A DNA stretch of 64,000 nucleotides from Gracilaria domingensis (Eukaryota > Rhodophyta > Florideophyceae > Gracilariales > Gracilariaceae), in NCBI GenBank assembly GCA_022539475.1, contig VCMS01000306.1, forward strand, positions 1 to 64,000, in the 5' to 3' direction. Shown in pieces: positions 281-62,796 of this stretch (positions are counted from its first letter, which is position 1; every line of letters starts with the position of its first letter). A program made the translations under genes and the position numbers. Under the pieces are notes generated by a model. The model saw only the letters and a program-made list of their open reading frames with translations, did no database searches and was not told the origin of the DNA.

Positions 281-834
281 TGTCGTATAGTACGATCTGG
301 TTGATCGGCGCGGACGGAGTGGATTGTTAGGAGTGCCGTTTCGTACGTGTAGGGCTTGCCCGAGCAATTACTTGTACGCGTAGTTGCCCCCGCATCGGAC
401 GTTAGACCCAGGTGTACTTGAGAGCGCACGTAGGACACGTGTGCCAGTCGGACGTTGACGGGCGTAGTATAGTACTGTGAGTCACTATCTGGAGGTCGTA
501 CAGAGGCGGGTTTACCTGATATTTAGGCGAACCCTAACCTCGCCATGACCTCACATTGTAAACACCAAGCACCCTTTGCCGTACGTCTTGTTCGTCGCGT
601 GGCGCTACCGACAGGCCGTTAAGCTGAGTACTATAAGGTTTATTAGGCCGTTCGTACCCTTTTGCACGCTCCTGAACGTGCTTGGTGATACCAACCGCCC
701 ACTCTCCGCGCTGACCGCCCGGTGCTTCCTCCTTACTCCCCGTACGGATTCATTACAGTCGCTCCCTCGAGCCACAGCCAACTCCGTCGCCTCAAGACCG
801 CTTCAGGTTTTCTCCCGATACGTACTATATCACA
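281..834 (+). repeat. 5' LTR of element 1
   Basis: A 554 bp long terminal repeat starting TGTCGT and ending ATCACA. It matches 10887-11440 with about 11 differences, which cluster in the first 150 bases. A TATA-like CTATAAGG lies near 631-638. The CAGAT duplication precedes it directly. Confidence 0.95.
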
Positions 835-835
835 C

Positions 836-853
836 TGGTCTCCCGACCTAGAA
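836..853 (+). other. Primer-binding site of element 1
   Basis: TGGTCTCCCGACCTAGAA begins two bases after the 5' LTR. It starts with TGG, the complement of a tRNA CCA end, as expected for a minus-strand primer site. The same 18 bases occur at the matching place in element 3. The tRNA species was not identified. Confidence 0.8.
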
Positions 854-909: not shown

Positions 910-3108
910 ATGAGCTCGAACGTCCCACACGGAGAGCAAGGAGAACGGCAGGTCGCAGAAGACAATGCTGAGTCCACTTTGGCCGCCCCTCGCGCCGCTT
1001 CGGACCATGCCTCGGTAGGCCGCCGGAGCACCCGAAGTACCGCGACGGCCTACGTGACCCCCTCAGAAGAGCCCGAACGGATAATCCGTGAAGGCAATTT
1101 GCAAACCAAATCGGACCGAAGGAAGAAAGAGAGGAGTAAGAACTCCGGGCCCCCTTTGGGAACTGAGATTGTACCACCTGGGACAGCGGCACTCCGGCCT
1201 ACACCTCAGACCGGACGGAGACCACCCCACGAACTATGGGCCGAAATAGCCCCGTACGCCCTGGAGGGACTTCGCACGGAGATCGAGGTTCATGTACCCA
1301 TGGCGGTCGAATTATATCTCAAGGACCGTATCCCGGAATTGATTCGTCGTGACATCACACCGATCATACACCGCATCGTGAACGATGCGCTGGGATCCAG
1401 AAGTACCGAAAGCGGAATGCAAGAGAATCTGAGTAACACCTTGGCCGCTTTGGTAGCTAAGCTACCACCCCAACCCCCAAAGTTTGACACTGACCAAACG
1501 GACAACGCACCTAGTCGCGGTGAGAGACAGGGACCGGAAATGGAGAAGGATCCGCAGAGGGATCCGACCGGTGTCTATCTCCTACCAGTACCCCCTCAGG
1601 GTGATCCGGACGGAAGCCCGAGCGATTCCTCCGACGACGGGAAGAATCACCGCAAACGAGGCGGTAAAGCGGGCAAGCATTCCGACTCGGACAATTCCGT
1701 ACGTAGACGGAAGAATCGTCGCCGCCGCAGAGGGCGACGACATTCAGATACTGACTCCGCGTCCTCGCGTTCATCATCAGAGGATGAGCAGACCGACTCG
1801 GATGATTCTGGGGACTCTCAAAGCCCCCGAAGAAAACGCAAGTCCGAACGGCGACGTTCCCGATCGGACAAGTTGGCGCTTAAGCGCCTCCGACCTCTGA
1901 ACGTCAAGTTCACCAAGGTTGTGGACTACCGTACGTACCGGCTCATTCGGCGCAGCCATAAGTATGACTCGAAGGTAGCGCGCAAGATCGCGCGCTATCA
2001 AAAGAAATTGAACGTCCAGATGAAAGGACATTCATTTTCCGGAACCGATCCCATCTCCGTTCTCAATTTCCTGCAGCGGTTCAAAACCGCTTGCAACCAT
2101 AACGGACTGACAGAAGGAGCGGCACTGTGGTGCTTCCAGTTCTACCTAACCGGGCCCGCACACGCTCTGGTTCAGTCCCGCCTCATCCGTGAGTCGGGAG
2201 CGGTCGACAGGCCTCGCGATGAAGCGCTCCATACGTACGAAGAGGTGGTAAATTTCTTACTGACCACCCACGCCACGGACGAGGTTATCGCCACGGCGTC
2301 CGCCGAGGTGACATTTTACACCCAGTCGTCAGGGATGTCCGAAACGGAATTCGCCCAGAAGCTCTGGACAAAGGCCCTCCGCTGTGGCAACGTATACACC
2401 GATCGGGATTTGAAGGGGTTATTCGTCGAAGGACTTTTGCCCGCTATACGGTCAAAGGTGCGGAATCACCTCACCACCCATCCCAGTATCGGATACGACG
2501 CGCTCGCCCGTTATGCGGAATCGTACGGCGATACTCACCGCGCCTCACGCCGCCAGTCCGTTCGGGTGGACACGCAGACTACGTCTGCTCGGCCTCGTGC
2601 CACTCGTACGATAAGAAAGGTGCACCAGGTCGAGTCCCCCTCGGCCTCGACGTATTCCCTGTCGGACGACAACGGCGAAGATGTCCTCATCGTTTCCCAG
2701 GGGTCTTCCATGCCGTCACCACCCACCACACCAAGTGCAACCACCCCAGCGACTTCCGCACGGTCATTCCCCAGTACGCCCGGCCAAAGGTCGAGCAACC
2801 CCCCTGGCGCAGCGTCAAGGGACCGTCCGTGCAGGATTTGCCTCTCGGGAGAGCCCAACTGCTGTCAACTTCTCCCACCGGACGTTAAGGCTAAACTCCT
2901 CGCAATCCGCGAGCAAAACTACCAACGCCGGCGCGACGAAGGGTACTACGGCACCGGCATGCCCACACGGAGAAACACGCCACCGCCATCCAATATCGGT
3001 TTCCGTAATATTGGCCCGACTCGTACATCTTACGCCCAGCCTCAGCAGGCAGCCATGCTGGTGGAAGAGACCGTTTCGGAACAGGAAAACGAGCCGGAGG
3101 ATGCGTAG
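910..3108 (+). CDS. Gag-like protein of element 1
   Basis: A 732 aa frame starting 76 bases after the LTR. The N-terminal third is low-complexity and charged, with a Ser/Arg/Lys-rich basic block around residues 230-320. A capsid-like retrotransposon gag domain follows at about 375-545 (a GTDP-x-S-V-LNFL-x-RF motif near its start, alpha-helical character). The C-terminal part is Ser/Thr/Pro-rich with a Cys cluster (CRICLSGEPNCC) near residue 643. It should form the particle shell of the element. It lies directly upstream of the protease frame. The gag assignment rests on position and domain style rather than on strong identity. Confidence 0.75.
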   Translation: MSSNVPHGEQGERQVAEDNAESTLAAPRAASDHASVGRRSTRSTATAYVTPSEEPERIIREGNLQTKSDRRKKERSKNSGPPLGTEIVPPGTAALRPTPQTGRRPPHELWAEIAPYALEGLRTEIEVHVPMAVELYLKDRIPELIRRDITPIIHRIVNDALGSRSTESGMQENLSNTLAALVAKLPPQPPKFDTDQTDNAPSRGERQGPEMEKDPQRDPTGVYLLPVPPQGDPDGSPSDSSDDGKNHRKRGGKAGKHSDSDNSVRRRKNRRRRRGRRHSDTDSASSRSSSEDEQTDSDDSGDSQSPRRKRKSERRRSRSDKLALKRLRPLNVKFTKVVDYRTYRLIRRSHKYDSKVARKIARYQKKLNVQMKGHSFSGTDPISVLNFLQRFKTACNHNGLTEGAALWCFQFYLTGPAHALVQSRLIRESGAVDRPRDEALHTYEEVVNFLLTTHATDEVIATASAEVTFYTQSSGMSETEFAQKLWTKALRCGNVYTDRDLKGLFVEGLLPAIRSKVRNHLTTHPSIGYDALARYAESYGDTHRASRRQSVRVDTQTTSARPRATRTIRKVHQVESPSASTYSLSDDNGEDVLIVSQGSSMPSPPTTPSATTPATSARSFPSTPGQRSSNPPGAASRDRPCRICLSGEPNCCQLLPPDVKAKLLAIREQNYQRRRDEGYYGTGMPTRRNTPPPSNIGFRNIGPTRTSYAQPQQAAMLVEETVSEQENEPEDA

Positions 3109-3125
3109 GGGCGTCGTCTCCTCCG

Positions 3126-6100
3126 ATGCCTGATAGCCTCGCCACACCGGGCGATAAGCCCAAACCAACCAGTGCGGACAGAACAGAACTGACTCTCGAC
3201 ACCCCAGAACGTATGGACGACAATGTTTTATTTGCGAGTGCAAATTACAAAGTTCACCTTTCCGTGGGCCTCACATCTACCCTAATGTATCCGCTCACGG
3301 GTGTTCTAGATACCGGAGCCGGTCCTTGTCTGATCCACGAGCGGCATTTTCCACCGCGATGGCAATCTCGTCTCCGCACGGACGTAAAGCCACGCATTAC
3401 GGACGCTTCACGCAACCGTATGGAGGTCGTGGGTTTTCTCCCGCTTGCTGTCCGCATTGGAGATCTTCACGTACGAGTACAATTCCTTGTGGTATCGAAC
3501 CTCGCCACAAGCGTCCTACTCGGCACGTCTTTTATCGATCGATACGTACTGGGAATCTTACCCCCAAAACGGACGATCCTCCTGCGCCATTCACGGCCTG
3601 TCTCGATATTGTTCCACGCGTACGGTCCCCACACGCCCACGTCCGTACGGAAATACCCAGTGCGCCCGGAGCGGAATGTGCCCTCTAACAAGATACACGT
3701 CGCCCGACCTGTTACGCTACCCCCATGTCTGAAACCAGGGTACAAGTAACAACCAAGGCGTCCGGTCTGGTATTTCTACAATCACACCACCGCACGGGCA
3801 GTTCGTTAGAGCTAACACTGCTCGCGAACGGCGTCATGGATCTACGTCCGGACGTTCCCTTCTTCGTTCAAGTTGCTAACGTCTCGGACCGACCGGTGCA
3901 CCTCCACAAACGTACCGTCATTGGTCTCGCCCTCCCGTCCCCTATAGCACTAATCACCCCCCTTCACCTAGATAGGCCGCGGAGCGACGACTCTCAGGAG
4001 GGGGAGGATACCGCTTTAGAGGATACCGCTTTAGACCAACCTCCACGGCGTTCTGACCAGCCCGATTGGCCCCAACGCGTTCAAATCAGCCTCGAGTATG
4101 ATAACGAACGCGACACAGTCATTGAACTCCTCCGACCGTTCAAGGACATGTGGGATGGCCATTTAGGCAAGATCTCCGCCGCAAAGCATCGGATACAGCT
4201 GGAACCCGGCACCAAGCCGATATTCCAGATGCCTTATCGTGCAGGACCCGCCCGACGGGAGCTTGAACGTAAGGAAATAACCCAACAGCTGGCAGCAGGG
4301 GTGATAGAACCATCGTCCGCAGAATGGGCCAGTCCGGTCGTCTTTGCACAGAAGAAAGATGGAAGCCTACGTTTTTGCGTCGACTACCGCCGTTTGAATG
4401 CCGTGACCGTACGGGATACATACCCTCTGCCACGAATGGACGAGTGTATAGACTCGTTAGGAGACGCACGGATATTCTCCACACTGGACGCCAATAGCGG
4501 ATACTGGCAGACCGAAGTGGACGAAGTTGACCGGGAAAAGACAGCCTTCACGTCCTACATGGGCCTCTACCGCTACGTACGGATGCCATTTGGACTCAAG
4601 AACGCCCCGGCTACGTTCCAGAGGGCTCTGGACATCATCCTATCACGTGTTAAGTGGCAGTACGCACTGGTCTACCTGTATGACGTGATCATCTACTCCA
4701 GAACGATAGAAGAACACTACGAACACGTACGGACAATTCTCGACATGCTACGTTCCGCAGGAATTACCCTACGACTGGACAAATGCCATTTCTTTAGTGG
4801 AACGGTCGACTACCTCGGCCATGTCATCCGTCCGGGCAAGCTCCAGGTGTCTACGAAGACGCAGGAGGCCATCAAGCAGGCGAAGCCGCCCACTACGCAA
4901 ACGGAACTCCGTTCGTTCCTGGGTCTTTGCAACGTCTTCCGCCGGTTCGTACAGAACTTCGCACGGATAGCGGCTCCCTGAATCAGAAACTGGAAAAGGG
5001 ACAGCCCACTAGCTTCGAAACCCTGACTGATACGGAATACGAGGCATTCGACGAACTTCGCCAACGCCTGATACGGCCCGCGATACTGGCTATCCCGAAA
5101 CAAGGATACCCATACGTACTGGACACCGACGCGTGTGACCGTCAGGTTGGCTGTGCCCTCCTCCAGAGGCAACCCGATGGGGACCTTCTCCCAATCGGAT
5201 ACTGGAGCCGCTCGCTAACCAAGACCGAGCGGAAGTATTCAACGACCGAACGGGAATGCTTCGATGTAGTGTGGGCTATCCTGCACCTCCAACCGTATTT
5301 GGAAGGACAGAAGTTCACTTTCCGCACGGATCAATACTCGTTAAGGTGGATACTGAACCTAGCGGACGCTTCAGGGCGACTTGCACGATGGCGCCTACGC
5401 CTGATGGAGTACGACTTCGACGTCATTCACCGACCGGGTATCAAACACCGAGCGGCAGATGCACTCTCACGAATCCAAACGGACGGAGAGGACAGTTCGC
5501 CGCTAGATGACGAGATCTCCTGTTTCCTCATCGACGACCGTCCGGACGATGGTCTCGTTATAGCCAACATCACCGTAGACGGACAAGAATATACGAACGT
5601 CTGCATAGATTGGCCAAGACCCGAACGGGAATCACCAGGGATACCGGAAGTGCTGGCACTGCCCGCGGAAGAAACCGAAATCGTACCCATCACGCTCGAG
5701 GAACTCGTACGAGCTCAGGCGCAGGACCCTTTCTGCCAATCCGTACGGAGAGATGTCGGCAACGGGGTTACCCTGTTCGATGTCGACCGAAACGGAGTAC
5801 TCATACGACGCTCACGCTTGGACGGCGCCCTACAGAAGGTGGTCCCCGAGTCCCTGCAGACGCGCGTCCTTTATCTGGCGCACTATCCCCGCTTGGTCGG
5901 ACACCCTGGTGCCACCAGAATGTACGAAACGCTACGGAGGGACTTCTATTGTCCCGACATGGCCAACGACGTCTTCCAGACCGTACGGAATTGTCGGTCA
6001 TGCCCAGCCGTCAAAGGAACCCGTTACCGGTCCCAGAAGCTCCTGAAGCTCTTCCCAGCAGATGGCCCGCTCGAGTTTATCGCCATGGACATAGTGGGAC

Positions 6101-7311
6101 CCTTTACCAGATCCCTTAACGGATGCCAGTATATCCTGGTGATGACCGATCGGTTCAGCAAGCTCTCGCGGGCCATACCACTGCGGTCAACCACCGCCCC
6201 AGTGGTAGCCAAAACGTTCTTGGAACATTGGGTTTACCCGTACGGCATCCCGAACTGCCTACCAACCGATAACGGACCGCAGTTCACGTCGAAGTTCTTC
6301 GAGGCCGTCTGCTCCGCACTGGGCACGAAGCACGTCTCGACCACTTCGTATCACCCCCAGGCAAACGGGCATGCAGAACGGTTCAACAAGACGCTGGTGG
6401 AACGCCTCCGTCACTACGTAGCGGACCACCAAAGGACGTGGCACGCATATGTCCAACCCCTTACGTACGGATATAACCTCCAGGTCCATAGGTCCATCGG
6501 AACCACCCCGTTCGCGGTCGCACTAACGAGAACACCTCCCAGTGTCCTCATTGACGAACCCAGTACGTCCTTGGACCCAGCAACACCGACTCAGCCGTCC
6601 GCAGCCCAGTTGAAGCGATACACGCTCAAACTCTTACAGGCGACGCTTCAGACCGCTCGGACAAAGCTGACACGCGCACAGCAGCGCTACAAGGACGACT
6701 TCGATAAGACCGTCCGGTTTCGCCCTACGTTCGCGGAAGGCGAGGAAGTGTACATTGACCGACCCAATTACAAAAGCACGGAAGAGGACCTAACGGAACA
6801 GGAACGAACTCTTCGGAAACTACTGCCAAAGACCACCGGTCCGTTCAAGGTCAAGGCCACAACGGACACTACCGTTACTATCGATGAAAACGGTATCGAA
6901 CACACCGTCTCCATTGATCGCGTCACACGCGCTCCGTCCGCACGGCCTACGAGTAGCCCCGTTACCACCGAACGTACACGGGAGGAACCCGTCGCTGACC
7001 CGGAGGGACCATTTGCGGAAGACGTCGTCGAACGCGACGATTTACCGCCACCCGATACGGTTCCTTGCGCTGTGGAACGCGTCGTAGCGCACCGCGATAG
7101 GCCGGACGGAGTCCAATACCGCGTACGCTGGTACGGCTACACCGCCGAATCGTACACCTACGAACCCCCTTCGAACATCCCCCAGCACTTTGTCGCCCGA
7201 TACTGGCGTCGCCGAAGTCGTACGACATCGGCAACACCCTTAAGGAGGGGGAGAGAAGCAGACGGAAGTCCGTCGGCTGGACAAAACGCCACCTACTCCC
7301 CAAGCACGTGA
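3126..7311 (+). CDS. Pol region of element 1: protease, RT, RNase H, integrase, chromodomain
   Basis: Overlapping frames cover this region. In order: an aspartic protease with the LDTGAG motif (about 3310); a reverse transcriptase (about 4260-4980) with the LDANSGYWQ and MPFGLKNAP blocks; an RNase H (about 5110-5460); an integrase (about 5890-6530) with a zinc-binding H/C region, a core with DTDNGPQF-type and NGHAERFNK blocks; and a chromodomain (about 7060-7200, RVRWYGY). Chromodomains are known to steer gypsy integration towards particular chromatin. The sense frame is broken in roughly two or three places, or partly depends on the frame changes this family is known to use. Confidence 0.88.
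7241..7252 (+). other. Internal polypurine tract copy, element 1
   Basis: TAAGGAGGGGGA, identical to the 12 bases just before the 3' LTR (10873-10884). It sits at the 3' end of pol, immediately before the antisense module. A one-mismatch version lies at 3994-4005 between protease and RT. Internal polypurine tracts act as extra plus-strand start sites in lentiviruses and Ty1; that role here is inference. Confidence 0.55.
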
Positions 7312-7571: not shown

Positions 7572-9884
7572 TCACCGCTGGCAACGTCTTGGATACGCCA
7601 CGACCACGGCCACGCGGACCACCGCGACCACGGCCCCTCCCACGAGGTGTCGGAATGCCCGAACGCTAGACCGACGCAGACCCACCTCGGGAACTGACCG
7701 GCTGGAACGGACTGGAAGTACCCGGCCAGGGAGCATTGGGTACCACGACCCTCCTGGATGGCTGCGGCTGACTAGGCGTGCTCGCCGCCGGAACTTCACT
7801 AGCCGCCACACCTGACTCACCCGCACCGGTACCTTGCTCGAAGCAGGCACGCTAGGAGCTTCCACACCGGGCAGGACTTCCGTCATTGGGGTACCCTCCG
7901 GCTCCACGTCGTCACCAACTTCTACAGCACCGCTACTGGACGCTTGAGCGCCACCGTCGCCCGTTGCAGCGACACCCTCCATACCGGCGACGGCCTCACC
8001 ATCGCCTCTCCCAGCCCCTCCCGGACTCACCGGAGGTGCTGGAGGGTTCAGAGTGACCCCGTCAAACATGGACGCACGCGCCCGTCTCAGGGTCTGAACG
8101 ATCTGGTTGACCTGATTCTCCACCATGGCCTGGTCGTGCAACCCTTGATAGGACTCACCGACCAACTCGTCCAACGTCGGAGCCTGCGTCTCCATAACCT
8201 GTCCGTCCGGTGCAGTACCCTCCCCGAAACCGGCCAGCATACCCTGCTCGTACGAACCGAGAACGCGCAGGCTGTGTTCGCGAAGATAACCGAGTAGGTC
8301 CAACATGCCCTGAGCCTGCTCACGCAGGCATGCTTCGGAGTTCGCCGCGCGACGCACCCAAGTACGCGCAGCCGTCAGGGCGCCCGGCACGTCAGTCGGC
8401 TCCGGAATCCCACGCGGAACGCATACAGCCCGCAAGGCATTGAGCAACGTCTGGAGGCGCTCGCCAGAGACTTCGACACCCATTGCGTCCAATTGGCGGC
8501 CTGGGAGCCCGACCTGGACCTCACGTTCCGTACGCACAGGTACCTCCACGACCTCCGGATCAGGCTCCGGCTCGGCCGCGGAAGATAACTGAGGCAGACC
8601 GGCTTGGACTCCGCTCTCACGCCTCGGGACGGGAGGAGCGGCTTCGAAGTCTTCCTCCATGTACCCATGCGGGAAGTAGTTCGGTCTATCCGTGAATGGC
8701 CAAGGCGGAAGCTGTCCCGTTGGCAATAGCACTCGGTTGATCGGCATCGCGCCCGTACCGGATGCGGGCATCGTAGGGAACAAGTCCTCAAAGTAGTCGT
8801 ACCAGAGGAACCCCGGCGTCTGCGACCAGTCCGTCTCCAAAGAGTACTGAAGGGGCTTCTCACCGACCGCAGGAGGATAAGAGGTCGCCCGCAGGATGTT
8901 CTGCAGCCCCATTTCGGCCAAGATGCATACCAATTTGTACGGGAGAAGGAACAACCGTCCGTACTGCGGCGAATCGTCTGTGTTGTACAGACGCTGATCG
9001 CCCGCACGGGTGAAGACTTCCACACCGTCGCTGGCCGCCTGGAGGAACGCCATGAAAGCGAAAACTGCCCACTCGGCGTACAGGATCTGCAAGACCGCAC
9101 GGCTCAAGGCTCCTTGGGATAGCAGTTCCCGCGAGTGGTACGCCACCACGGACGGCGTCGGTACGGAAAGGTTGCGTTCGACCTCCACAGACTTCCACGC
9201 CTCGGTCATACTGTAGTACACCGCCGTACGGTCGTTCTTCGCAACGTCGAAGTACTCGACGTTGTGCCAGGAGTAGAAGAAACGGTGTGATCCCCGAATG
9301 CGGGCTTCCGTCGCGGCGTTGCTTCCCCAATGCTCGCGGTCTAACCAGTACAGCTGGTCGTACGGCGGTTCGAACATCATCAACGCGAGAGGATTACCGT
9401 TTTCGGGCGGAAAGTTCGCGTCGGAATTGAGCCGGTGCATCAGGCTCTGGAGTCGGCGTCGATACTCGCGCTCCTCGGGGCACCTTAAGTACGGCATGTC
9501 AGCTATTCCGAACGTCCTTTCTTCCACACGACCGACGATTCCAGGAAGGTGATTCCAGCGTGCCTGCCAAGCTTCCATTCGCGTACGCTTCGGATTACGG
9601 CTCGCCACCTCACGTAATGGGAGCGAGACCGGAATGGCTGCGAAGCGACGCGCATCGAAGTACTCCGCACTGTCCTGAATGTACTCGTTGACCGTTATAG
9701 GGACCTGTTTCGACCGACGTGGAGCCTGGTTCGTACGACGGGTACGATGGTCGAAGTGTTGGCCAGGAAGCGGCATAGACCGAAACGGGCCACCACCACC
9801 AGACGTACTCGGTTGATTCGGATTGCTCGCCATCGCAGGCGGCGGAGCGGACGACTGGCTTGATTGCGAACCCATCGTGGGCAA
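7572..9884 (-). CDS. Long antisense ORF of element 1, unknown function
   Basis: A 770 aa frame on the strand opposite to gag and pol, lying wholly between pol and the 3' LTR. The N-terminal 60 residues are Ser/Pro/Gly-rich. A globular middle (about 65-390) is rich in Trp, Tyr and Phe and carries a W-x2-VEVE block, then a PTPSVVAY block and LYAEWA, then FLLPYKL. A Pro/Glu-rich linker follows, then a second conserved block near 480-515 (ALRAVCVPRGIPEPTDV). The C-terminus is Gly/Ala and Arg-rich. The same blocks recur in the antisense frame of element 3, so this looks like an inherited part of the elements rather than chance. I recognise no known family. Confidence 0.75.
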   Translation of the reverse strand: MPTMGSQSSQSSAPPPAMASNPNQPSTSGGGGPFRSMPLPGQHFDHRTRRTNQAPRRSKQVPITVNEYIQDSAEYFDARRFAAIPVSLPLREVASRNPKRTRMEAWQARWNHLPGIVGRVEERTFGIADMPYLRCPEEREYRRRLQSLMHRLNSDANFPPENGNPLALMMFEPPYDQLYWLDREHWGSNAATEARIRGSHRFFYSWHNVEYFDVAKNDRTAVYYSMTEAWKSVEVERNLSVPTPSVVAYHSRELLSQGALSRAVLQILYAEWAVFAFMAFLQAASDGVEVFTRAGDQRLYNTDDSPQYGRLFLLPYKLVCILAEMGLQNILRATSYPPAVGEKPLQYSLETDWSQTPGFLWYDYFEDLFPTMPASGTGAMPINRVLLPTGQLPPWPFTDRPNYFPHGYMEEDFEAAPPVPRRESGVQAGLPQLSSAAEPEPDPEVVEVPVRTEREVQVGLPGRQLDAMGVEVSGERLQTLLNALRAVCVPRGIPEPTDVPGALTAARTWVRRAANSEACLREQAQGMLDLLGYLREHSLRVLGSYEQGMLAGFGEGTAPDGQVMETQAPTLDELVGESYQGLHDQAMVENQVNQIVQTLRRARASMFDGVTLNPPAPPVSPGGAGRGDGEAVAGMEGVAATGDGGAQASSSGAVEVGDDVEPEGTPMTEVLPGVEAPSVPASSKVPVRVSQVWRLVKFRRRARLVSRSHPGGSWYPMLPGRVLPVRSSRSVPEVGLRRSSVRAFRHLVGGAVVAVVRVAVVVAYPRRCQR

Positions 9885-10872: not shown

Positions 10873-10884
10873 TAAGGAGGGGGA
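10873..10884 (+). other. Terminal polypurine tract of element 1
   Basis: TAAGGAGGGGGA followed by TC and the 3' LTR. This is the expected plus-strand primer position for an LTR element. Confidence 0.85.
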
Positions 10885-10886
10885 TC

Positions 10887-11440
10887 TGTCGTATAATACG
10901 ATCTGGTTGATCGCCGCGGACGGAGTGGATTATTAGGAGTGCCGTGTCGTACGTGTAGGGCTTGCTTGAGCGGTTACTTGTACGCGTAGTTGCCCCCGCA
11001 TCGGACGTTAGACCCAGGTGTACTTGGGAGCGCACGTAGGACACGTGTGCCAGTCGGACGTTGACGGGCGTAGTATAGTACTGTGAGTCACTATCTGGAG
11101 GTCGTACAGAGGCGGGTTTACCTGATATTTAGGCGAACCCTAACCTCGCCATGACCTCACATTGTAAACACCAAGCACCCTTTGCCGTACGTCTTGTTCG
11201 TCGCGTGGCGCTACCGACAGGCCGTTAAGCTGAGTACTATAAGGTTTATTAGGCCGTTCGTACCCTTTTGCACGCTCCTGAACGTGCTTGGTGATACCAA
11301 CCGCCCACTCTCCGCGCTGACCGCCCGGTGCTTCCTCCTTACTCCCCATACGGATTCATTACAGTCGCTCCCTCGAGCCACAGCCAACTCCGTCGCCTCA
11401 AGACCGCTTCGGGTTTTCTCCCGATACGTACTATATCACA
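10887..11440 (+). repeat. 3' LTR of element 1
   Basis: A 554 bp repeat, same length as the 5' LTR and about 98 percent identical by eye. It is followed by CAGAT, the right-hand target duplication. Confidence 0.95.
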
Positions 11441-11523
11441 CAGATGAGAATGGGCGTCAGCAGAGGCGGAACTGGCGTTGACATCTTGACACGCTCGCCT
11501 AGAAGCACGTTCCGTACGGGACG

Positions 11524-50445: not shown

Positions 50446-50502
50446 AACTAGTTCAGGGAGCTCTTCATTTTCTTCCGGTGGATGATCTTGACTATGACTA
50501 TC

Positions 50503-51493
50503 TGTAGAGCAAAACCCTGCGCTAGGCGCGATGGGGAATCTCCACTAGGATGTCCGAGTCCTACTCCCTGGATGAGATAGAAACAGCGGCAGAACCCTCT
50601 GTCCGTGCTCGAGTCGCGAGACAAGCCGGGTGTAAGACCGGAGACGGTGACTGGATATACCTACAGAGGTGAGATGCAAAGAACGGTGTAGATCCAGAGG
50701 TGAAGTGTGATCCGAACCTGGAGAGATGGAGAAAAAGGGGACCGTGTCAACGGGGGGGGGGAGCTCACGGTGCAACCCACCGGAGCGAAGCTACGGACCG
50801 TGCCAACCGGCGGAAACAGGTCCGATAGCGGAGCGACGCACAAGGGCGTGCCAAAAATATACCCAATACTGGGGCGGAAGCAATACCTGAACCAGGTGAA
50901 CGGGTGACAACAACAGTCACGAAAATGAACAACAAAATACAATGACAACAACAAGGGACCGATACAACGGTAGATAAAACAAAGGTTCTAGAGATGGCAA
51001 GATGTAAGCTTCTTAAGTGACCCTGAGGGGTAGTAGTGCCGAAACCAATCGTGGTTACTCTCCGAGGGGAGTGGTAAACCTACGTAGGCAGCTGTCTACT
51101 ATAGCCCGATCCTGAACAGGACGCGACTCAGTTGTCCATTTACTCGTCGGCTCCAGGGTGAGATCACCCGAGTATATATACTATTACTACTACGGTATCT
51201 ACAATGCACACCTCCCGAGGATCATACACATGGACGACCCACTGTCAGGGTGTGGGGTATTCCCCAACGGGCGTGGCACAAATATCTAACTAGCCAACTC
51301 CACCACGTGGCCTACTATCACACCCACTAGGCACTTCCCATGCAGGGTCTACCTATTAAGGGTCCAACCAAACCATCCCAACAATACCCAAAATTAAGGG
51401 GAGTTTTCATAACTTAGCCACGTCACCGGCCATCAGTACCATCTCATTATGAGAACCGTGATGCATCCGATAGCGGAAAGCCGTTGCTCCACA
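50503..51493 (-). repeat. 3' LTR of element 3
   Basis: 991 bp, the partner of 61813-62791. On the plus strand it begins TGTAGAGC and ends CTCCACA. Confidence 0.92.
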
Positions 51494-51495
51494 TC

Positions 51496-51507
51496 TCCCC
51501 CTCCTTA
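51496..51507 (-). other. Terminal polypurine tract of element 3
   Basis: TAAGGAGGGGGA on the minus strand, two bases from the 3' LTR. It is the same 12-mer and the same spacing as in element 1. Confidence 0.85.
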
Positions 51508-51556: not shown

Positions 51557-53654
51557 ATGACGTCCCCTCAGGGTTCTACCGACCACTTGGTTCTTCCACG
51601 CAAGCGGCTTTCGCCTCCGACTTCGGATATAACTCCTCCTTCTCCTCCGATACCTCGGCGTTCGCTGCCAGTCTCAACTGCTTCTTCTCCTCTCTTAGCA
51701 GGAATGAATCCGAGCCCGTTCCATACCACCCCGCTCCCGGGGAACTCGTCGTCAGCTCCGCAAGCGGCGTCTGAGGTGTCCTCGGGCAGTGCGTCACAAC
51801 AAGGACATCCTCCTCAAGCCCCCTCCCAATACTTTGGTGGGTTTCATTCAGCTCCTCTCCCTCAAGGGAATCCGTACGGTGGTCCGCTCAACCAACCCTA
51901 CGCGGGGTACAACCATCTCGGATTCTTCCCTTCTCAAGCGCAAGCTCCTGTCCCGCAAGCGGTGGCTCCTTTCAGCTTCTACGAGGCGTATCCCCATCCG
52001 AGTGCTCCTCTTCCGATGCCTCCGGCTCCTCCAGTTGCTCCTACTCAGCAGGCTTTCGATCCTAACGCCATTGCTTGGAATGCCGAGCAGGCTGTCCCGT
52101 TGACGGTGAACCCCCGTGGGTGGATTAGTCGTGAGTCCCTCGTGAATCGGGATATACGCCGCGAGGGCCTTATCTTCTCCCGCGCGCCGTGGTTCCACCC
52201 GACAGCGGTTGCCGATGAGGCTCTCATCGATTCTTACGCCGTGAACGGAATGCTCCCAGGTGGGATCCCCCGAGATGCAGTACGCTCCCGCGAGTGGCGA
52301 ACCCGCATTGCGGTAGAACCTCACTTGCTCCGATGTGAACGCGGGGAGTCCCTTGACCTAGGTCGGGAGACCAAAATGTAGAGCAAAACCCTGCGCTAGG
52401 CGCGATGGGGAGATGGCTCGTTTGGCTTACTCCAGGGTTGGAAGGTTGCGATATGATCATCCGATTCCGGCAGAATTCGACTTCGACGTGTCGCACTATC
52501 GTACCTACGGGGAGGTCTCATATGGCAACGCGTTGGCGGAGTTTCCGGAAGCGGAGCATCGGTATCACTTGGGTGAAGTGGATCCTGATATCCTCCTGTG
52601 GAGTCGTCCCTTGCTGAGGGCAGAGTTCCGATACCTGTCACGGAGTAGGCGTCACAACCGTGATCTCTATGATTTCGAGAGGCGGGTCCGGTTTGAGCGG
52701 AATGCGCGCTCCCGTCGGGGACTTCTGATTCCGTATCCAAATTTGGAGGTCGATCGTTTGCGCTTCGATGCCTTACCGTCCCGATACGTGGGCCTTCCAT
52801 CGTGGTGGAGTCGGGTAGAGGTCCCTGCGGGGTGTTTTGCTGAACTCCCGCCGAGCATCTACTATATCGGCTCGCGGTTGATAGACAATCTCGACTCGGG
52901 CTATTGGTCGTTGGTACTCGCCGAGTGGGCTGCCCGCGTCGCGGTTCACCTCCTGTGGGATGTCTATGATCACTTCCGCTTGTGGTATCTTCCTCCAAAT
53001 TTGGGGTGGCTCCTTCGAAGGATTGATCTCGTTACCCCCTTGGGTTCCGAGGCTAACCAGGAAGAGGTTGGGAAGTTGTTGGATGTAATCAACAGGGTCG
53101 ATTGGGACCGAGTTCCGGTAGCTTGGCAGCCTGACAGGCGAGAGCGTTTCCGCGACCGATCACCGGGGCGAATTTCCACCCGTTCCGGGGTCTGGGTGTA
53201 CTACGACCCGTGGGAGCGCCAGCTCATCTCTCAAGAGCAAGCGAACGCGATGGCCGCACTTCCCCGCGCTATGCCGGTAGGTCACCCAGTTGGGTTTGTG
53301 TTCCCTGAGGACTATGCCGTGCCCTCGGATGTCCCTGATCCAATGGTGGATAATGATGAGATCGCCGTCGTTGCCGGAACAGGCCAACTCACTGGCATTC
53401 CGAATACGGACCCGAACGCAACTGCGGTCCCAACGGAGGGCGCTCCTGCCCCTGAGGGATGGTGCTTGATAGCTCCCACCGCACAACCGGCAAATTGGGC
53501 CGGAAGCGTGGCTTCCCTTCGGGCCGATCTCCAGGCTCATGGCGTGCCAATCCCTCCGGGCGTGAACACCATCGCAGGGCTAGCGGCCCTCGCGAGCGAG
53601 TACTTCTCACAGAATCCCAACGCGGGAAGCGGTGCTCCCTCCACTGGCGGTTAG
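51557..53654 (+). CDS. Antisense ORF region of element 3, related to that of element 1
   Basis: Long plus-strand coding sequence, antisense to the element, between its chromodomain and its 3' LTR. The first part is Ser/Pro-rich. The globular part carries W-x2-VEV, PPSIYY, LVLAEWA and LWYLPPNLGW, in the same order and spacing as W-x2-VEVE, PTPSVVAY, LYAEWA and FLLPYKL in element 1. A later block, SLRADLQAHGVPIPPGV, matches ALRAVCVPRGIPEPTDV. The C-terminus is Ala/Gly-rich. Overall identity is low, so conservation over long divergence is implied. It looks lightly broken. Function unknown. Confidence 0.72.
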
Positions 53655-54087: not shown

Positions 54088-57000
54088 CTACCCCACCATC
54101 GCATTGTCCAACATTGGAGGCAATGGTGTCCGAGACCGGCGATGATACGACAAGACCTTGGACCTAGGGAGGTGTTCAATTGGCTCCCAAGTGTCCTCCT
54201 CTGGGGAATAGCCGTACCAACGGACTCTATACAGTAGCTTCCCTTCAGGGCTTTTCTCGTGTTCCACGATACGATCTACCACGAATTCCTGTGGGTATAC
54301 GCCATCCTTGGCATCTCCTGGTGCTTCTCCCGACATTGGGCAGTGATGTCCAGTGGTACCCACGCGGGTTAGTGGTCCTTGGAGGCGTTGAACCGATCTT
54401 CGGGGCGGTGGACAGGTGGATTTCGGTCTTCTCAAGCCGTCCTGACGGAGTGCGCTAACTCCCGACACGGGCGTCCAATTGCCTCACAAGTGAGTTCAAC
54501 CGAAAACTCTCGATCTCCGGAGTCCGGCGAGCTCCTTTCTTTCCCAAACGGGCGGCCAACCGACGAACGGTAGCGTCCGTTTTGCGGAACCACTTTCACT
54601 TTGGTCGCAGGAGAGCCGTTGCGACGGAGAAGTAGCCTACAGCACTCCCTGTGCAGGGCGGCGGAACGCTGGGCCACGGCGCATATCCGGCCGTGCACTC
54701 CATTTTCATTGGATGGTGGCGCGCGCGTGTGTGCCACACATCCCGTGAACGGTATCTACAGTGTCAGTTTCCGGCAAGCGGTCGCTAAGCGGCGGGCACC
54801 ACTCTCCAGCAATGGCATGGGATTACAGTATTCAATCTCGAATCTCCCGCCATAGGGCTGCGCATGCGCACTGCGCGCGGTGCCATTTACCGTAATTCCG
54901 GGTCCGACGCACTATAGCGTTCCGTCTGCTAAGCAGCGCCCTTCATGGGACTTCTCCACTTCCTGACCAAGGCTTTCCAGCACAATCCACAAGGATTCTT
55001 GTCTTCTTAACTCTCCCACTGCGGGCCATTCCCAGGTGGGCTATGCGTCACTTTCCATGCCGCTTCGTCCCGCGAAGGGTCAGCGGATACTGCACGTTCG
55101 CGCGAGCGAGTTACAGCGGTTCGGATTGCATCCCAACGGGGCCACTAACATCCTTAGCAGCAGCACTCCCAGCAGGGGATTCTTCACTTCTTCTGACTTC
55201 GTTCCTCGCCGAGGTTTCGGAATCACGCGACGTAGCGCCAGCGCGATCGTTCCCAGTGGGGGATTCCATCTCACTCTGAGACTCAGCACCTCGGGTAGGT
55301 CCAGCGGATGCCGGAGCAACCGGAGCGCGATTTACACTGTCCTCCCCCTCCTTAGGGTGCGATACGGCTTCCGCATTTCGCGCCAATACCGTAGACGAGG
55401 GGTGAATCTCATGTAACTCAGTAGAGGGTGTAGGTGTAACCCGTGAGAGTCCGGGGTTATCCTTGAGCAACTCTGTTGTTTCAGGCAAGTCAGCGAGACC
55501 GCGCTGCGGGTGGGGCAAAACTGATGGACGGTTTGCTGCAGTACCCGTCTGTTCGGTAACTTGATGCGACGATGGACCGTTTCCGGTATCCGGCGCGGCG
55601 ATAACTTCCTGTATAGGGCTCGGTGCGCGATATACTCGATCTCGCGATACCCGCTCGTGCTGATTATCGATATCAAGCACGACGGTAGTCTCCTGTATGG
55701 ATACAACCCGATAGGGGCCACTGGCGATTGGAGAGAGCTTATGGCGCTTCTCCTTCTCAGGATTGTAGTACTCCTTCCTGAGGAACACATAATCATCAAC
55801 CCGAAGCTGCGGTAGCGGCCTACGGATTCGGCTATCGAAATTGCGCTTGTAGGCGAGTTGAGCTTTCTCCATAGAGCGCTTAGCAATAGGCACCATCGTG
55901 GTTAACCATTTCTTCCACGCTTCGCGGTGTAGCCTCGGTGTCGAGTACTCGTCCATGGTTGGCTGTGCCTCAATGGCAAGAGGAGGTGGTCTCCTTGACA
56001 GGACTAACTCGAAAGGGGACAACGACGTTACCCGATGTACCTGGGTGTTGTAAGCGTATGTAATGGCGTCTGTGTACAAATCCCAAGTCTTGGGGTGTTC
56101 CGCAACGTAGGATCTCAATGCACCAAGAATGGTTCGATTAAATCTCTCTGCCTGACCATTAGTTTGGGGGTGATACGTTGTTGTGAACAGGTTCCTAATG
56201 TCGAGGATGCGACAAACGTCTTGGAAGAATTTCGACGTGAACTGGGAGCCGTTGTCGGAGAGCACGTGTACCGGTGGTCCATAGACAAAGACCCAGTGGG
56301 TAACAAACGCCTGAGCCACAGCAGCAGCAGTTATCCGCTTGAGCGGCACAGTCCGTACCAGCTTTGAGAAGCGATCGGTGATCACCAAGAGGTATTGATT
56401 CCCTTGCGAGGTTTTGATCAATTCGCCAAGAATGTCAATGGCGACAGACTCTAGCGGCGCCCTTGCAGGGAATAACTTCAACTTCTTTGAATGCTTCCTC
56501 AGCTTGATGTCGTTTTTGGCACATTCCTGACAGGATCGACGTACTGCATAGCAGTCGAATGCCATTGCAGGCCAGTAAAAATCCTTTCTCAATGTGAGAT
56601 ACAACTTTCTTCCTCCCGGATGGGCTCCCAGCTTCACATAGTGAGAGAGATGAAGAATCCGACTCTGTAAGGAGTGCGGCACCACTATTTGTGGGTTCGG
56701 TGACACCTTTCTTATTAAGTAGCCTTGATTATTCACCTGAAAGGGCAAGTGGTATCCACCGTTCAGACGGGCTCGTACCAGTGTACAGAAGGGGTCCATC
56801 TGCTGTTCCCGTATCATCTCCTCGGGCGTGATGGGTATAAATGACCCGGTACCCGGTTCAGTGGGTCGTGTGACAAGTATATCGTCACAAACGTCATCCG
56901 TCACAATTTCCATACTCCCTTCGAGGTTGCCAACCATAAAACATGGGATGTCGGCGTCCTCGGTAGGCTCGGCTTCAGCTGATGTGCCCAAACGGGATAG

Positions 57001-60000
57001 GGCGTCCGCCTGGAGGTTAAGGGAGCCTTTCTTGTACACTACTTCGAAGTCGAATTCCGACAGTCGGAGTCTCCACCGCATCAGGCGTCCCGATGGTTCG
57101 GTGATTTCCATCAGCCAGCGAAGGCATTTGTGGTCGGTGTGTACACGAAAGTGGGTCCCCATCAAATATGGTCTGAGTGTCGACAATGCCCAGACTATGG
57201 CAAGACATTCCTTCTCGGAAACTGAGTAATTCCGCTCATGAACGTTTAGCGATCTCGACCAGTACCCAATAGGGTGTCGTTCCCCGGTCTCATCGGTTTG
57301 AAACAAAGCGCACCCAACCTGGTTTGCGCTAGCGTCAGTGTCGACCTCATAGGGTAACCCAGGTTTGGGGAGAGCCAGAATTGGCGGAGACGTCACGGCT
57401 TCAACCAATGCCGCGAACGCGGAGGCCTCTTCGCCTCCAAAGGGGTGCAATTCAACAGGTTTTCCTTTCGTAAGGAGCTTGTTCAACGGTGAAGCAATGT
57501 CCGCGAAGTTCGGAACGAAACGTCGGTATACGTTACACAGTCCTAAGAAGGATCGCAGCTCTGTTTGAGTTCTCGGGTGTTTCGCCTCCTTCAAGGATTT
57601 GACCCGCACTTCATCGACTGAAAGCTTTCCGGGACGGATTATGTGACCCAGATACTTGACCGATTCGGTGAAGAACTCGCACTTCTTGAGTTTCAATGTT
57701 ATCCCTGCGTCACGTAGTACTCTCATAACGTCCCGCACATGGGTCAGATGATCATCCAGATTGTTGGAAAAAACGACGATATCGTCCAGATACACCAAAC
57801 ATGTGGTCCACTTAAATCGCGCCAGTAAGATATCGACCGCACGCTGGAATGTAGCGGGTGCATTAGTTAACCCAAAGGGCATTCTCCGGAAACGGTATAG
57901 GCCTTGATGGCATACGAACGCCGTCTTATCCCGGTCTTTCTCCCTAATGGGAACCTGCCAGTATCCCCAGTTAGCGTCAAGGGTGGTGAACACGTTCGCG
58001 CTCCCAAGAGAATCGATATATTCGTCCATCCGGGGTATCGGATATACATCTTTCACTGTCACCGCATTCAACTTTCGGTAATCGATACAAAATCTCCAAG
58101 ATCCATCCGGTTTCGGAACTAGCACTACTGGTGACGCCCAAGGGGATTGAGCGGCCTCAATAACGCCAGCCCGCAACATCTTCTCAACTTGAGACTTCTC
58201 TTCCTCCCGGCCTTCGGTCCGGCCCGATAGGGGTGTTGTGCAATCGGCCGAGTGTTCGGAAGCAAGTCAATGCAATGCTCATTTATTCCAATCGTTCCTA
58301 GAGTTCCGTCCCACATGGGAGTGAATTCCCGCAGCATCTCGCGAAGCTTCTCCCGATGGGATTCCGGTACATGCTCCAAATCAAGCTTCATCAATTCCTC
58401 AACAGGATCCTTCAAATCACTGCCAGGTGGCACAGGACTAACCTCTAGAGGTCTCGGATTGTCTGAACCCGAGTCTTCTTGGGCTTCTTCCGTATTCACG
58501 GCTTCAACAACTTGCGGTTCGGCGCTCTCTTCCCCCTCTTTAGGGTCAGACACTCCGAGAACCTTGGCGATAGGTATTTTCGTCGGAACGACCGCAGTCG
58601 GGTGTGGCAGCACAGTACCAATCACTTGGTTCTTTACCAGCCACTGAGTGGATTTTCCCAAGTTGGCGACCATGACCTTGAAGGGTTGATCTGGTTGGAT
58701 AGTGACCACTCCATTAGCGAGAGCGATTTGGCGCTGTTCATATAAAGCCGGTAACGTTGTATCGTGTGGAGGCCCCATTGTTTGGTGTTGACGTCGACCC
58801 ATACCTGGGATTCTGGGGGCAACTGCACGGACTTCGTGACGTGTAGTTTTGTCGACCCCATGCCATCGTTGGAGGCTTGTTGCGCGGCCGGCAGCGGTAC
58901 GTGCTTCCGCGTAGCGGCTCGCAACGGTTTCCGAACAATCGGCAGTATCGACCCGTCTTCCATTTCCACTTGGCGTTTCCGCGGACGGATGGCTTCCACG
59001 AACCGATCGCAGAAGTCACAACCGAAAATAATCGGTGCAGCCAATGAGTCACAGACGACAAAATCAAGTTGTACCAAACAATTTCCTAATCGTACAAGGA
59101 GTGTAATATAACCAGCCGTTCTCAACGGATTATTGTTCGCATCGGCGAGATTTAGAGCAGGGCCGAAACGGATTGTCTCCCGAAGAGTGGGCGGGATTAG
59201 CTTCTTGTTGATCAAGTTGGGGGCAGCTCCTGTATCCAGGACAGCTAATTGCCTAACCATGAATTGGGTGGACAGGCCAAGGTCGGCATACACCTTGTAG
59301 TTCCTCTTGGCCATTACCAGGATTCTATCCGGAGCACGGAAATTTCGGACCGTACCCACGGGCGACGAAGAACACCACAGTGTTCCGAATCTACGTCAGT
59401 GGCAGCCATCTTCCTTGTTAGGATTCTAACAGCCGGGGAGTGAAGCGGAGGCGCCTCGGGCGTCTTCAGCTTCGGCTCAGAAGACGCCCCTCCCGTTGGG
59501 GAGACTCCCAAGTCTAGTTTTTCGGAGCAGGACCAGCCTGTCGTGGCCGATTCCCGTCCTGGGCACCAACTTGATGACCGTTCGCGGTTCGACTCTTCCT
59601 TCCATATTCTGGCCTACCACAGGAGCGGCTTGAGTCGCCATAGATCCACCACTCAAATGAACTGCCATTGCGTGCTTTGCGCCTTCGTAGGAAGTTCTCG
59701 GCACACGAGCTTGGTTCTCTGGGAGGGAGATTCGAACTGAGCGATGATTTTCGACCTTTCCCGCGAAGGGAGCGTACACTGCGTTGAGATATGCCCATAT
59801 TGTAACATTCATAACAGATAACTGGGGTCGAATAGTCCTGTGGACCTCTATCCACACGACTCTGCGGGGTGTTATCCCTCCATCCTGGGCGAGTAAACCT
59901 CATGCCACGACCTCCATAGGGATTGGCGCTGCCGGAACCCGGTGTCCTTGCGCATAGAATGCGGGATCCGTTTCCGAAGACGGGACAGAGGTGACGGAGG

Positions 60001-61822
60001 TCAGAAGTACCATAGAGTCGGGGTTGCTACCCACGAGGTTAACGTTATCGTGATCCAGATTGGAACCATTCCCATCAACCTGGGCAGAAGAGTAATCCGA
60101 TTCTTCGGCGAAGAGTACCTTACGAGGTTTGGTTCTAGAGGGACGCCTAGCTCGGAGCGTTTCACCTTCGGCTTGGCATACTGTACTAATTCCAGGTAGG
60201 TCATCTTCCTATTATTCTCCCGATGTCGGGCGACAAGTGCCCGTATTTGGAATCCAACCCATCCACGAACAGGGAACATCTCTCTCCCGAGGAATGTACA
60301 TTACCGCAGCGGTGAAAAGCCTTATTCAGGCGCGTTGAATAAGCTGTTTCCGTTTCTCCCGGACGTTGCTTCGTATCCCTTAAGGCGGAAGTCGCCTTTT
60401 GGATGGCATGACCAGTAGCACCTTAGGAGGTAGTGTACCGCTTCGGGCCAACATGTAACTCCCCCTTCCGAGGCTCTTGACGATCCGCGACGGAATTAAA
60501 CTGATCTTCTGCCAAACCTTTGAGGTAATACGGAGGGCTACATACGCCTGGCCCTCGCTCATTCCGAGTATATCAGCTTCTTGCACAAACCTGGCGAGGA
60601 AGTCCAGGACCAGGATAGGGTCCTCTCCTGCAAACTCTCTCTTATTCAGAGTAACGCCGAGTTTTCGGATGTAGTCCCGGACCTTTCCGTTCCCCTTGAG
60701 GTCCGAACTTCGGAGGTATCCTTAAGTCGATAATAGCGATATGAAAGCAACTTCCGATACAGCGGATTAGATGGCTTCAACTCCTTCAAGCCAGGTGCTT
60801 CTTCCCCTTCTCCGGGTGCGGATTGCTCCCTGAGAGGTAAAAGTAGCCTTGGACCGTGACTTCGATGAACGGGGACGCCGACGTCGGCTATCATCCGAAG
60901 AGTCGGACGACGACGACGAGGACGAACTGTCCGAACTACTTCCGGATCGGAGTCAGACACATCCGAGTAATTACGGAATCCTTCATGACCTACGACGGCT
61001 TCTCCTAGTGGATTGGCGAACTGAACTTTCGTCCTCCGAACTATTCCGCCCGGCGGCTTCTGCTTCCTCGTCCATCCGAATGGTGGCTTCGAGGGTGTCC
61101 AAGCGTGCGTGGATCCGTTCCACGGCGGCTTTAGTATCCTCTCGTACGAGGCGGTTTTCCTCCACATAAGCCCTTGGGGAGCCGAAGCACTCCATGAGTG
61201 AATTCATCTCCTGCCTCAGGATACGCACCTCTCCTGAGACGTCCTTATCTAGGAGTTTATAAACCTGTCGACGGAGTTCCTCGACTGACTCAATGAGGAT
61301 ATGTGGCAGCGTTAGCAATACTAAGCGAGTGCCCAGATTACTGTACTCCTGAGAGTCAAGTCTTTCCGGCGGTGCGGCAGAGGGTGTCTCCACGACTGGA
61401 ACTTCCTCTTCAGGTTGTGGTACTGCCTGCGGAGGGAGTTCTATAATCTCCTGTCCATCAACTGATGCATTCCGGTTCTCGGAGTTGTCGCGATTACTTC
61501 CCGATCCAGGGACCGATATTCTCGAGCGGGTACCACCTGACCGCGCAGGGCATTCGAGGTAACCGACCTTCCTTTCGAGGAGGTAGCTCGGCGTGGCATA
61601 CTGCAGCTTGCCAACCGAACTCGGGCTATTACGCGAACAAATGCGAGACTTCCAAACTGCAGCCAAAAAAAGGGGTGAGAGATCTCGTATCACAACCAGG
61701 TGAACGTGGCCGCGACCTTCAATCTCCCAAAAGGGAATTCCAAGTGTCCAGATTCCAAGCGACAAACAAACCCAGTTATGGTCCTCCACCGTTCTAGGTC
61801 GGGAGACCAAAATGTAGAGCAA
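54088..61822 (-). CDS. Gag-pol region of element 3
   Basis: Minus strand, in order from the right: gag-like frames (about 61822-60650, with coiled-coil-like and Glu-rich parts), a zinc-knuckle-like CYECYNMG stretch (about 59810), an aspartic protease with LDTGAAP (about 59240), RT with FCIDYRKLN, LDANWGYWQ, MPFGLTNAP and YLDDIVVFS, RNase H, integrase with LSDNGSQF and NGQAERFNRT (to about 55900), and a chromodomain near 54300-54160 (YRVRWYGYSPEEDTWEP). The RT-to-integrase stretch 58179-55111 is a single open frame of 1022 codons. The rest is in several pieces. Confidence 0.85.
55343..55354 (-). other. Internal polypurine tract copy, element 3
   Basis: TAAGGAGGGGGA on the minus strand near the 3' end of pol, the same 12-mer as at the 3' LTR. 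A one-mismatch copy lies at 58531-58542 between protease and RT. Element 1 has copies at the same two places. Confidence 0.55.
61795..61812 (-). other. Primer-binding site of element 3
   Basis: On the minus strand TGGTCTCCCGACCTAGAA lies within a few bases of the 5' LTR. It is identical to the site in element 1. Exact offset from the LTR is two to four bases. Confidence 0.75.
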
Positions 61823-62791
61823 AACCCTGCGCTAGGCGCGATGGGGAATCTCCACTAGGATGTCCGAGTCCTACTCCCTGGATGAGATAGAAACAGCGGC
61901 AGAACCCTCTGTCCGTGCTCGAGTCGCGAGACAAGCCGGGTGTAAGACCGGAGACGGTGACTGGATATACCTACAGAGTGAGATGCAAAGAACGGTGTAG
62001 ATCCAGAGGTGAAGTGTGATCCGAACCTGGAGAGATGGAGAAAAAGGGAACCGTGTCAAAGTGGGAAAGCTCACGGTGCAACCCACCGAAGCGAAGCTAC
62101 GGACCGTGCCAACCGGCGGGAACAGGTCCGATAGCGGAGCGACGCACAAAGGCATGCCAAAAATATACCCAATACTGGGCGGAAGCAATACCTGAACCAG
62201 GTGAACGCGTGACAACAACAGTCACGAAAGTAAACAACAAATACAATGACAACAACAATGAACCGATAAAACGGTAGATATAACAAAGATTCCAGAGATG
62301 GCAAGATGCAAGCTTCCTAAGTGACCCTGAGGGTAGTAGTGCCGAAACCAATCGTGTTACTCTCCGAGGGAGTGGTAAACCTACGTAGGCAGCTGTCTAC
62401 TATAGCCGATCCTGAACAGGACGCGACTCAGTTGTCTATTTACTCGTCGGCTCCAGGTGAGATCACCCGAGTATATATACTATTACTACTACGGTATCTA
62501 CAATGCACACCTCCCGAGGGTCATACACATGGACGACCCACTGTCAGGGTGTGGGGTATTCCCCAACGGGCGTGGCACAAATATCTAACTAGCCAACTCC
62601 ACCACGTGGCCTACTATCACACCCACTAGCACTTCCCATGCAGGGTCTACCTATTAAGGGTCCAACCAAACCATCCCAACAATACCCAAAATTAAAGGGA
62701 GTTTTCATAACTTAGCCACGTCACCGGCCATCAGTACCATCTCATTATGAGAACCGTGATGCATCCGATAGCGGAAAGCCGTTGCTCCACA
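61813..62791 (-). repeat. 5' LTR of element 3
   Basis: 979 bp, TGTAGAGC to CTCCACA on the plus strand, followed directly by the CTATC duplication. It differs from the 3' copy by a few percent, many changes being single-base differences in runs. Confidence 0.92.
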
Positions 62792-62796
62792 CTATC

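Follow-up and report, generated by a model that had tools for sequence, protein, structure and literature searches.

Antisense open reading frames located between pol and the 3′ LTR (aORF-3R) have been described in several gypsy elements of plants, namely, Grande of maize (gene23), RIRE2 of rice, Retand of Silene (ORF4) and PvRetro13 (PMC7264820). These ORFs are retained in most copies of a family, and the available text of PMC7264820 gives no demonstrated function for them. The gene23 protein of Grande is reported to be nuclear and to be made from its own promoter, and Boty of Botrytis cinerea is named as having an antisense ORF in the same position (PMC7264820). Retand is placed outside the chromoviruses, and its antisense TRP28 proteins contain Transposase_28 (PF04195) and are predicted to bind DNA (PMC11963269). 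A comparable layout is found in the retrovirus HTLV-1, in which HBZ is an antisense gene at the 3′ end whose antisense promoter is located within the 3′ LTR (PMC7264820) and whose product is nuclear (PMC11963269).

The window analysed here, the whole stretch of 64,000 nucleotides from contig VCMS01000306.1 of the red alga Gracilaria domingensis, contains two Ty3/gypsy LTR retrotransposons with target-site duplications, elements 1 and 3, both of which have antisense coding sequence between pol and the 3′ LTR. This is the aORF-3R layout: pol is followed by an additional ORF that runs antisense to gag–pol, precedes the 3′ LTR and is retained in most copies. As far as the available texts of PMC7264820 and PMC11963269 describe the plant elements, the likeness consists of place, strand and retention in most copies, whereas the host differs and the red-algal antisense protein has neither a Transposase_28 nor an SMC domain according to Pfam. 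The parallel with plant gypsy elements drawn in the preliminary description holds for place and strand but not for Transposase_28 (PF04195), for which elements 1 and 3 and the 22 aligned members gave no hit up to an E of 1. For HBZ, which is a basic leucine-zipper protein, the analogy is one of layout only; the red-algal protein has no basic leucine zipper match in Pfam. Retand, in the available text of PMC11963269, has a non-chromovirus pol, in contrast to element 1, which has a chromodomain. Boty, compared by layout alone on the basis of PMC7264820, is an example from outside plants, in a fungal host, of an antisense ORF in this position. Overall, the layout with an antisense extra ORF is already known from plants and Botrytis, and what appears to be new is the protein family. 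No description of antisense ORFs in red-algal gypsy elements was found among the titles and abstract starts of the open-licence literature.

Structure of elements 1 and 3

Element 1 extends from 281 (LTR start) to 11440 (LTR end) and has the following parts:

276-280 and 11441-11445: 5-bp target duplication CAGAT, borders read from the sequence
281..834, plus strand: 5′ LTR (TGT...ACA), 98.0% identity over 555 bp to 10887-11441 (BLAST; one base past the border)
836..851, plus strand: primer binding site, 16 bases identical to those of element 3
910..7311, plus strand: gag-like ORF, protease, RT, RNase H, integrase and chromodomain, in four ORFs
7572..9875, minus strand: antisense gene, ATG at 9875, 767 aa; the TTG-started frame reaches 9884
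8700..9479, minus strand: confidently predicted part of the antisense protein, residues ~133-392 (AlphaFold2, mostly helical)
8817..9503, minus strand: core block judged homologous to element 3, residues ~125-353 (hhalign, shuffle control)
10874..10884, plus strand: polypurine tract AAGGAGGGGGA, identical in all 11 bases to that of element 3
10887..11440, plus strand: 3′ LTR, BLAST identity, borders read from the sequence

Pfam identifies RVP, RVT_1, RT_RNaseH, Integrase_H2C2, rve and Chromo in the pol region of element 1. The chromodomain closes the integrase (E 3.6e-9), and no Pfam family exceeds its cut-off in the gag-like ORF (910-3108).

Element 3 is in minus-strand orientation, flanked by LTRs at 61813-62791 and 50503-51493:

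50498-50502 and 62792-62796: target duplication GATAG (minus-strand reading), borders read from the sequence
50503..51493, minus strand: 3′ LTR, 96.5% identity to 61813-62791
51496..51506, minus strand: polypurine tract, read from the sequence
51557..53654, plus strand: antisense gene, split by frameshift in the window copy into pieces 51557-52381 and 52413-53654
52482..53114, plus strand: core block judged homologous to element 1, mapped via L010 from the core profile alignment
55111..61809, minus strand: gag–pol region, with the pol ORF at 55111-58179 and the gag region in several broken frames
61794-61809, minus strand: primer binding site, read from the sequence
61813..62791, minus strand: 5′ LTR, BLAST identity, borders read from the sequence

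The pol of element 3 contains RVT_1, RT_RNaseH, Integrase_H2C2 and rve; no chromodomain is reported for this element by Pfam.

The antisense frame and its selection

The 770-codon minus-strand frame proposed for element 1 (7572-9884) is present between pol, which stops at 7311, and the 3′ LTR (10887-11440). The longest stop-free run in the antisense region plus 1 kb is 778 codons, compared with a mean of 213 and a maximum of 541 codons in 1000 first-order Markov simulations of the element 1 region. The sense frames opposite the ORF contain 9, 18 and 14 stops, with a longest open run of 156 codons. In element 3, antisense sequence is likewise found at the proposed position (51557-53654), but the window copy is frameshifted into ORFs of 274 and 413 aa; the element-3-type gene is intact as one 685-aa ORF in 8 of 30 fetched loci. 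The final ~85 residues of the window's element 1 ORF are unlike most copies. Among the matches listed, 21 others align to it with at least 77% identity over more than 600 residues, and their alignments end at 679-686 in 19 cases, at 634 in one and at 765 in one. Judging from the alignment, the odd tail looks like the result of a frame change; the same ending is found in a few partial copies (e.g. on C156, 100% identical over 555-770).

Pooled pN/pS of the antisense gene is 0.215 across five element-1-type copies and 0.238 across nine element-3-type copies, and a third, young set of five near-identical copies yields 0.286. Third codon positions vary most in each of the three sets. The young set says little, since ratios range from 0.08 to 1.35 among those of its pairs that differ silently at 1 to 5 sites. 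For the pair L062/L069, dN is 0.196 and dS is 1.303. When all reading frames were compared in ten element-1-type copies, the true frame gave 0.232, the other same-strand frames 1.781 and 1.649, and the opposite strand 1.383, 0.294 and 1.666; the value of 0.294 belongs to the mirror phase, which is interrupted by stops opposite the element 1 antisense gene. For four of the ten copies, the integrase end has a pN/pS of 0.221 (0.538 if L002, with its frame-broken pol stretch, is included). Constraint on the antisense protein is thus about as strong as on the integrase end of the element itself (0.23 versus 0.22). Comparisons between distant subfamilies gave pooled values of 0.63 and 0.53, which carry no weight either way because many of the silent-site estimates are saturated. 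Overall, purifying selection acts across copies of both families (pooled pN/pS 0.22 and 0.24), the ratios are well below 1 as expected of a gene, in contrast to 1.65-1.78 in the other same-strand frames, and other copies keep the frame in both families. The antisense frame is almost certainly a selected protein-coding gene, and the earlier proposal of an extra antisense gene is borne out.

Distribution and descent of the antisense gene

The assembly searched comprises 77.9 Mb in 680 contigs. Its phycobilisome linker matches mark the host as a red alga, against a land plant and against an oomycete, the latter a candidate on genome size and gene style. Five single-protein searches for the antisense protein returned at least 77, 105, 63, 73 and 75 matches, in lists that overlap and include fragments. 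Among the matches listed, at least 79 of 102 pol copies have an antisense-gene match downstream; 79 are in antisense orientation, none in sense, and none lies upstream of pol. For element-1 pol, 57 of the 65 matches listed were kept, leaving out 8 short secondary pieces, and at least 44 of the 57 have an antisense match within 6 kb downstream; for element-3 pol, 45 of the 47 matches listed were kept, leaving out 2 pieces of copies counted before, and the corresponding number is at least 35 of 45. Some contigs resemble duplicates of one another (e.g. C41 and C527, with equal scores), and the copies are not all independent. Five of the 23 unplaced pol copies were inspected: C583 has the gene, C484 has it in broken pieces, in C439 and C194 the contig breaks off, and C227 has no antisense gene within 3.5 kb.

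Trees of the RNase H–integrase region and of the antisense core were compared for ten elements, and every well-supported clade agrees. The clades (E1,(s45,s41)), (s59,s60), (s61,s63) and (E3,s58) are common to both, with support of at least 96/99 in the pol tree and at least 97/98 in the antisense tree, except for (s59,s60), which has 83/99 in the latter. Two of the ten elements are composites: the s45 rows take the antisense gene from C26 and pol from C113, two contigs with 97% identity between their antisense genes, and the s60 rows combine C37 (antisense) with C48 (pol), whose antisense genes score alike against L059. The deeper order differs without support on either side (67/77 and 56/74), s59-s60 being placed by E1 in the pol tree and by s61-s63 in the antisense tree. 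The long-branched s80, which triggered a program warning, groups with E3 and s58 in the pol tree (95/95) and adjoins them without support in the antisense tree. Judging from these phylogenies, the antisense gene is very probably old and has mostly been inherited together with pol.

Similarity between the two antisense proteins

Several lines of evidence connect the antisense proteins of the two elements. In a BLASTP comparison, element 1 and L049, a member of family B, are 25.5% identical over 94 residues (E 2.4e-5). Profile–profile comparison of families A and B gave P values of 7.3e-6 with the first alignments and 8.4e-10 over 229 columns with wider ones, and hhalign of the family cores reached P = 2.2e-11 over 195 columns, indicating that ~200 core residues are homologous. 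With the profile trimmed to core columns, the match scores 90.5. The highest score among 100 column shuffles is 27.1 (mean 16.8), and the reversed profile scores 20.0. Furthermore, an antisense frame on C583 fits both family profiles (E 8.6e-55 and 2.7e-15). This bridge frame between the families (L080) is located at C583:20400-23900, frame 1177-2664 (+). In a six-frame scan of the window with the profiles, no frame other than those of elements 1 and 3 matched at E up to 1; the family B profile picked up element 1 at E 9.5e-4. The antisense proteins of elements 1 and 3 can, on these alignments, be regarded as homologous with near certainty.

The preliminary description had rested this relationship on five shared blocks in the same order. 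Four of them fall within the one supported core alignment, whose match beats all shuffles, whereas the fifth (ALRA/SLRA...P) is unsupported alone, its score of 11.4 being equalled or exceeded in 4 of 100 column shuffles, which is not significant. The L-x-AEWA block fits element 1 as written, but element 3 has L-V-L-AEWA. The window also contains pol ORFs of another gypsy element (47566-50445, minus strand; RT, RNase H and integrase), near which the same six-frame profile scan found no relative of the antisense gene.

Domains, predicted fold and relatives

No Pfam family matches the antisense protein of element 1, of element 3 or of the 22 aligned members, and sequence-based searches of solved structures gave no match either. 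The AlphaFold2 model of the core, based on 22 sequences, has a mean pLDDT of 71 and a pTM of 0.75, whereas the full-length family B model (10 sequences) has a pLDDT of only 33. In the predicted models, low-confidence, presumably disordered ends flank a helical core. The predicted core fold had no match in BFVD or PDB (Foldseek), or with VIA-align over 14 chains. In agreement with the earlier statement that no known family could be recognised, the protein family looks new on these Pfam, solved-structure and fold searches.

Relatives among ~5.8 billion proteins are P0001 (family A) and P0002 (family B), with the best 7999 or 8000 candidates scored per search; among IMG/VR viral contigs, no relative was confirmed with either family profile. 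Glycine/arginine-rich tails often bind RNA. Such a tail is present in L002, L004, L007, L042 and P0001 and partly in L005, and is missing from L045, L059, L060, L061 and family B. It cannot represent the common function, since these last members and family B lack it.

Possible function of the antisense product

Our main reading, to which we assign a probability of roughly 0.4 taken as a whole, is that these elements have a selected, old and antisense-transcribed third gene with a shared core, whose product is a nucleic-acid-associated or nuclear accessory regulator. In several element subfamilies the third gene lies opposite to gag–pol in the stretch from pol to the 3′ LTR; its transcription would start at an antisense promoter that is part of this LTR or situated immediately internal to it. 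The distance from the LTR to the first ATG of the antisense gene is ~1 kb in element 1 and 63 bases in element 3, and in the latter the promoter would most likely lie within the LTR, given how short this distance is. The product may be a soluble accessory protein that works with the nucleic acid of the element itself, and its likeliest role would be to regulate element expression or integration in the nucleus or as part of a ribonucleoprotein. A soluble, nucleic-acid-associated protein is suggested by the low-confidence ends around the core, the glycine/arginine-rich tail in some A members and the apparent lack, on a simple hydropathy scale, of a common membrane segment. No fold or domain match in Pfam, BFVD or PDB points to nucleic-acid binding. 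A regulatory role is supported by the parallel with Grande gene23, described in the available text of PMC7264820 as nuclear and as having its own promoter. The nucleic-acid-associated or nuclear regulatory role is put forward tentatively.

A structural or particle-associated protein, such as a second capsid-like, assembly or packaging protein, rather than a regulator, would fit the pN/pS of 0.23, close to the 0.22 of the integrase end, the helical core with its disordered flanks and the basic glycine/arginine-rich tail of some members. We consider this unlikely, given that the element 1 protein has no similarity to its own gag-like ORF (BLASTP, best E 2.0), that being made from the antisense strand it is not fused to Gag–Pol, and that no capsid-like fold was matched in BFVD or PDB. 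An envelope-like product, one of the possibilities raised in the preliminary description, or a protein for cell-to-cell spread, would explain the location, between pol and the 3′ LTR, where env also lies. L002 moreover has a hydrophobic core helix (best 19-residue Kyte–Doolittle mean 1.81). However, all 79 placed copies among the matches listed are antisense and none is sense, the corresponding helix of L010 is less hydrophobic (1.15), and L045 has its highest value (1.44) in another part of the protein; the value of 2.14 in element 1 falls in its odd tail. On this simple scale, L002, L045 and L010 reveal no evident membrane segment common to both families. The envelope suggestion thus gained no positive evidence, and such a role is very improbable.

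It is also highly improbable that the gene is a recently captured host gene carried as cargo. LTR elements are known to capture host genes (PMC7264820), but this gene occurs in subfamilies whose RNase H–integrase is 43-56% identical to that of element 1, its orientation is fixed and it matches no known domain in Pfam. Least probable is an antisense RNA that regulates the element by pairing, a mode considered for other elements too, with the ORF being incidental: non-coding antisense transcripts do exist in other elements (PMC7264820), yet pN/pS is 0.22-0.24 in the true frame only, third positions are the most variable and the frame exceeds all 1000 simulations. Roles at the RNA and protein levels are nevertheless compatible and could exist together. 

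If the red-algal family has no recognisable relationship in sequence to those of other hosts, separate gypsy lineages would have come to use an antisense third gene in one and the same position, and such convergence would argue for a general need, e.g. timing or dosage separate from gag–pol. The intact frames in several subfamilies make the question of function testable. Naming the family would also aid the annotation of red-algal genomes, in which such ORFs could pass for host genes.

Possible mosaic elements

The pol regions of the C204 and C48 elements (L083/L084) are 99.75% identical over 1.2 kb, while their integrase ends (L091/L092) are 79% identical and the antisense genes of C204 and C37, the latter of the C48 type (L059/L060), share 53% of protein and ~66% of DNA positions. 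Next to the gene, the spacer contains a 147-base patch of 92% identity; towards the LTR, identity is 87% over 262 bases. In C16/C132, silent differences amount to 80 of 291 sites in pol and 187 of 256 in the antisense core; the third comparison gives 84 of 302 for pol (C113/C123) and 186 of 243 for the antisense core (C26/C123). The antisense gene is thus more diverged than pol in all three pairs compared, including at silent sites where these were counted. Collectively, the three pairs suggest that the RNase H–integrase core and the 3′ part may have recombined between elements.

The near-identical pol of C204 and C48, set against their diverged antisense genes and integrase ends, prompts a further, decidedly doubtful reading. 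The family, possibly of a new fold, might be a third core gene common to a large clade of gypsy elements in red algae and might form, together with the integrase end, a 3′ module that passes between elements independently of the RNase H–integrase core, acting as a self-recognition or targeting factor forced to differ between co-resident elements.

Other reading frames

Several further ORFs were noted in the window. Two near-identical 238-aa ORFs, at 23375-24091 (minus strand) and 32940-33656 (plus strand), lie in opposite orientation ~9 kb apart, differ at two residues and have a weak DUF2844 match below the Pfam cut-off. The 691-aa ORF at 15814-17889 (minus strand) has no Pfam match at E up to 0.01, the 441-aa ORF at 29078-30403 (plus strand) consists of ankyrin repeats, and the 349-aa ORF at 34368-35417 (plus strand) contains a DDE_Tnp_4 transposase domain (E 4e-16). 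In the assembly as a whole, the phycobilisome linker family has 14 matches, three of them inside one 878-codon frame on contig C680.
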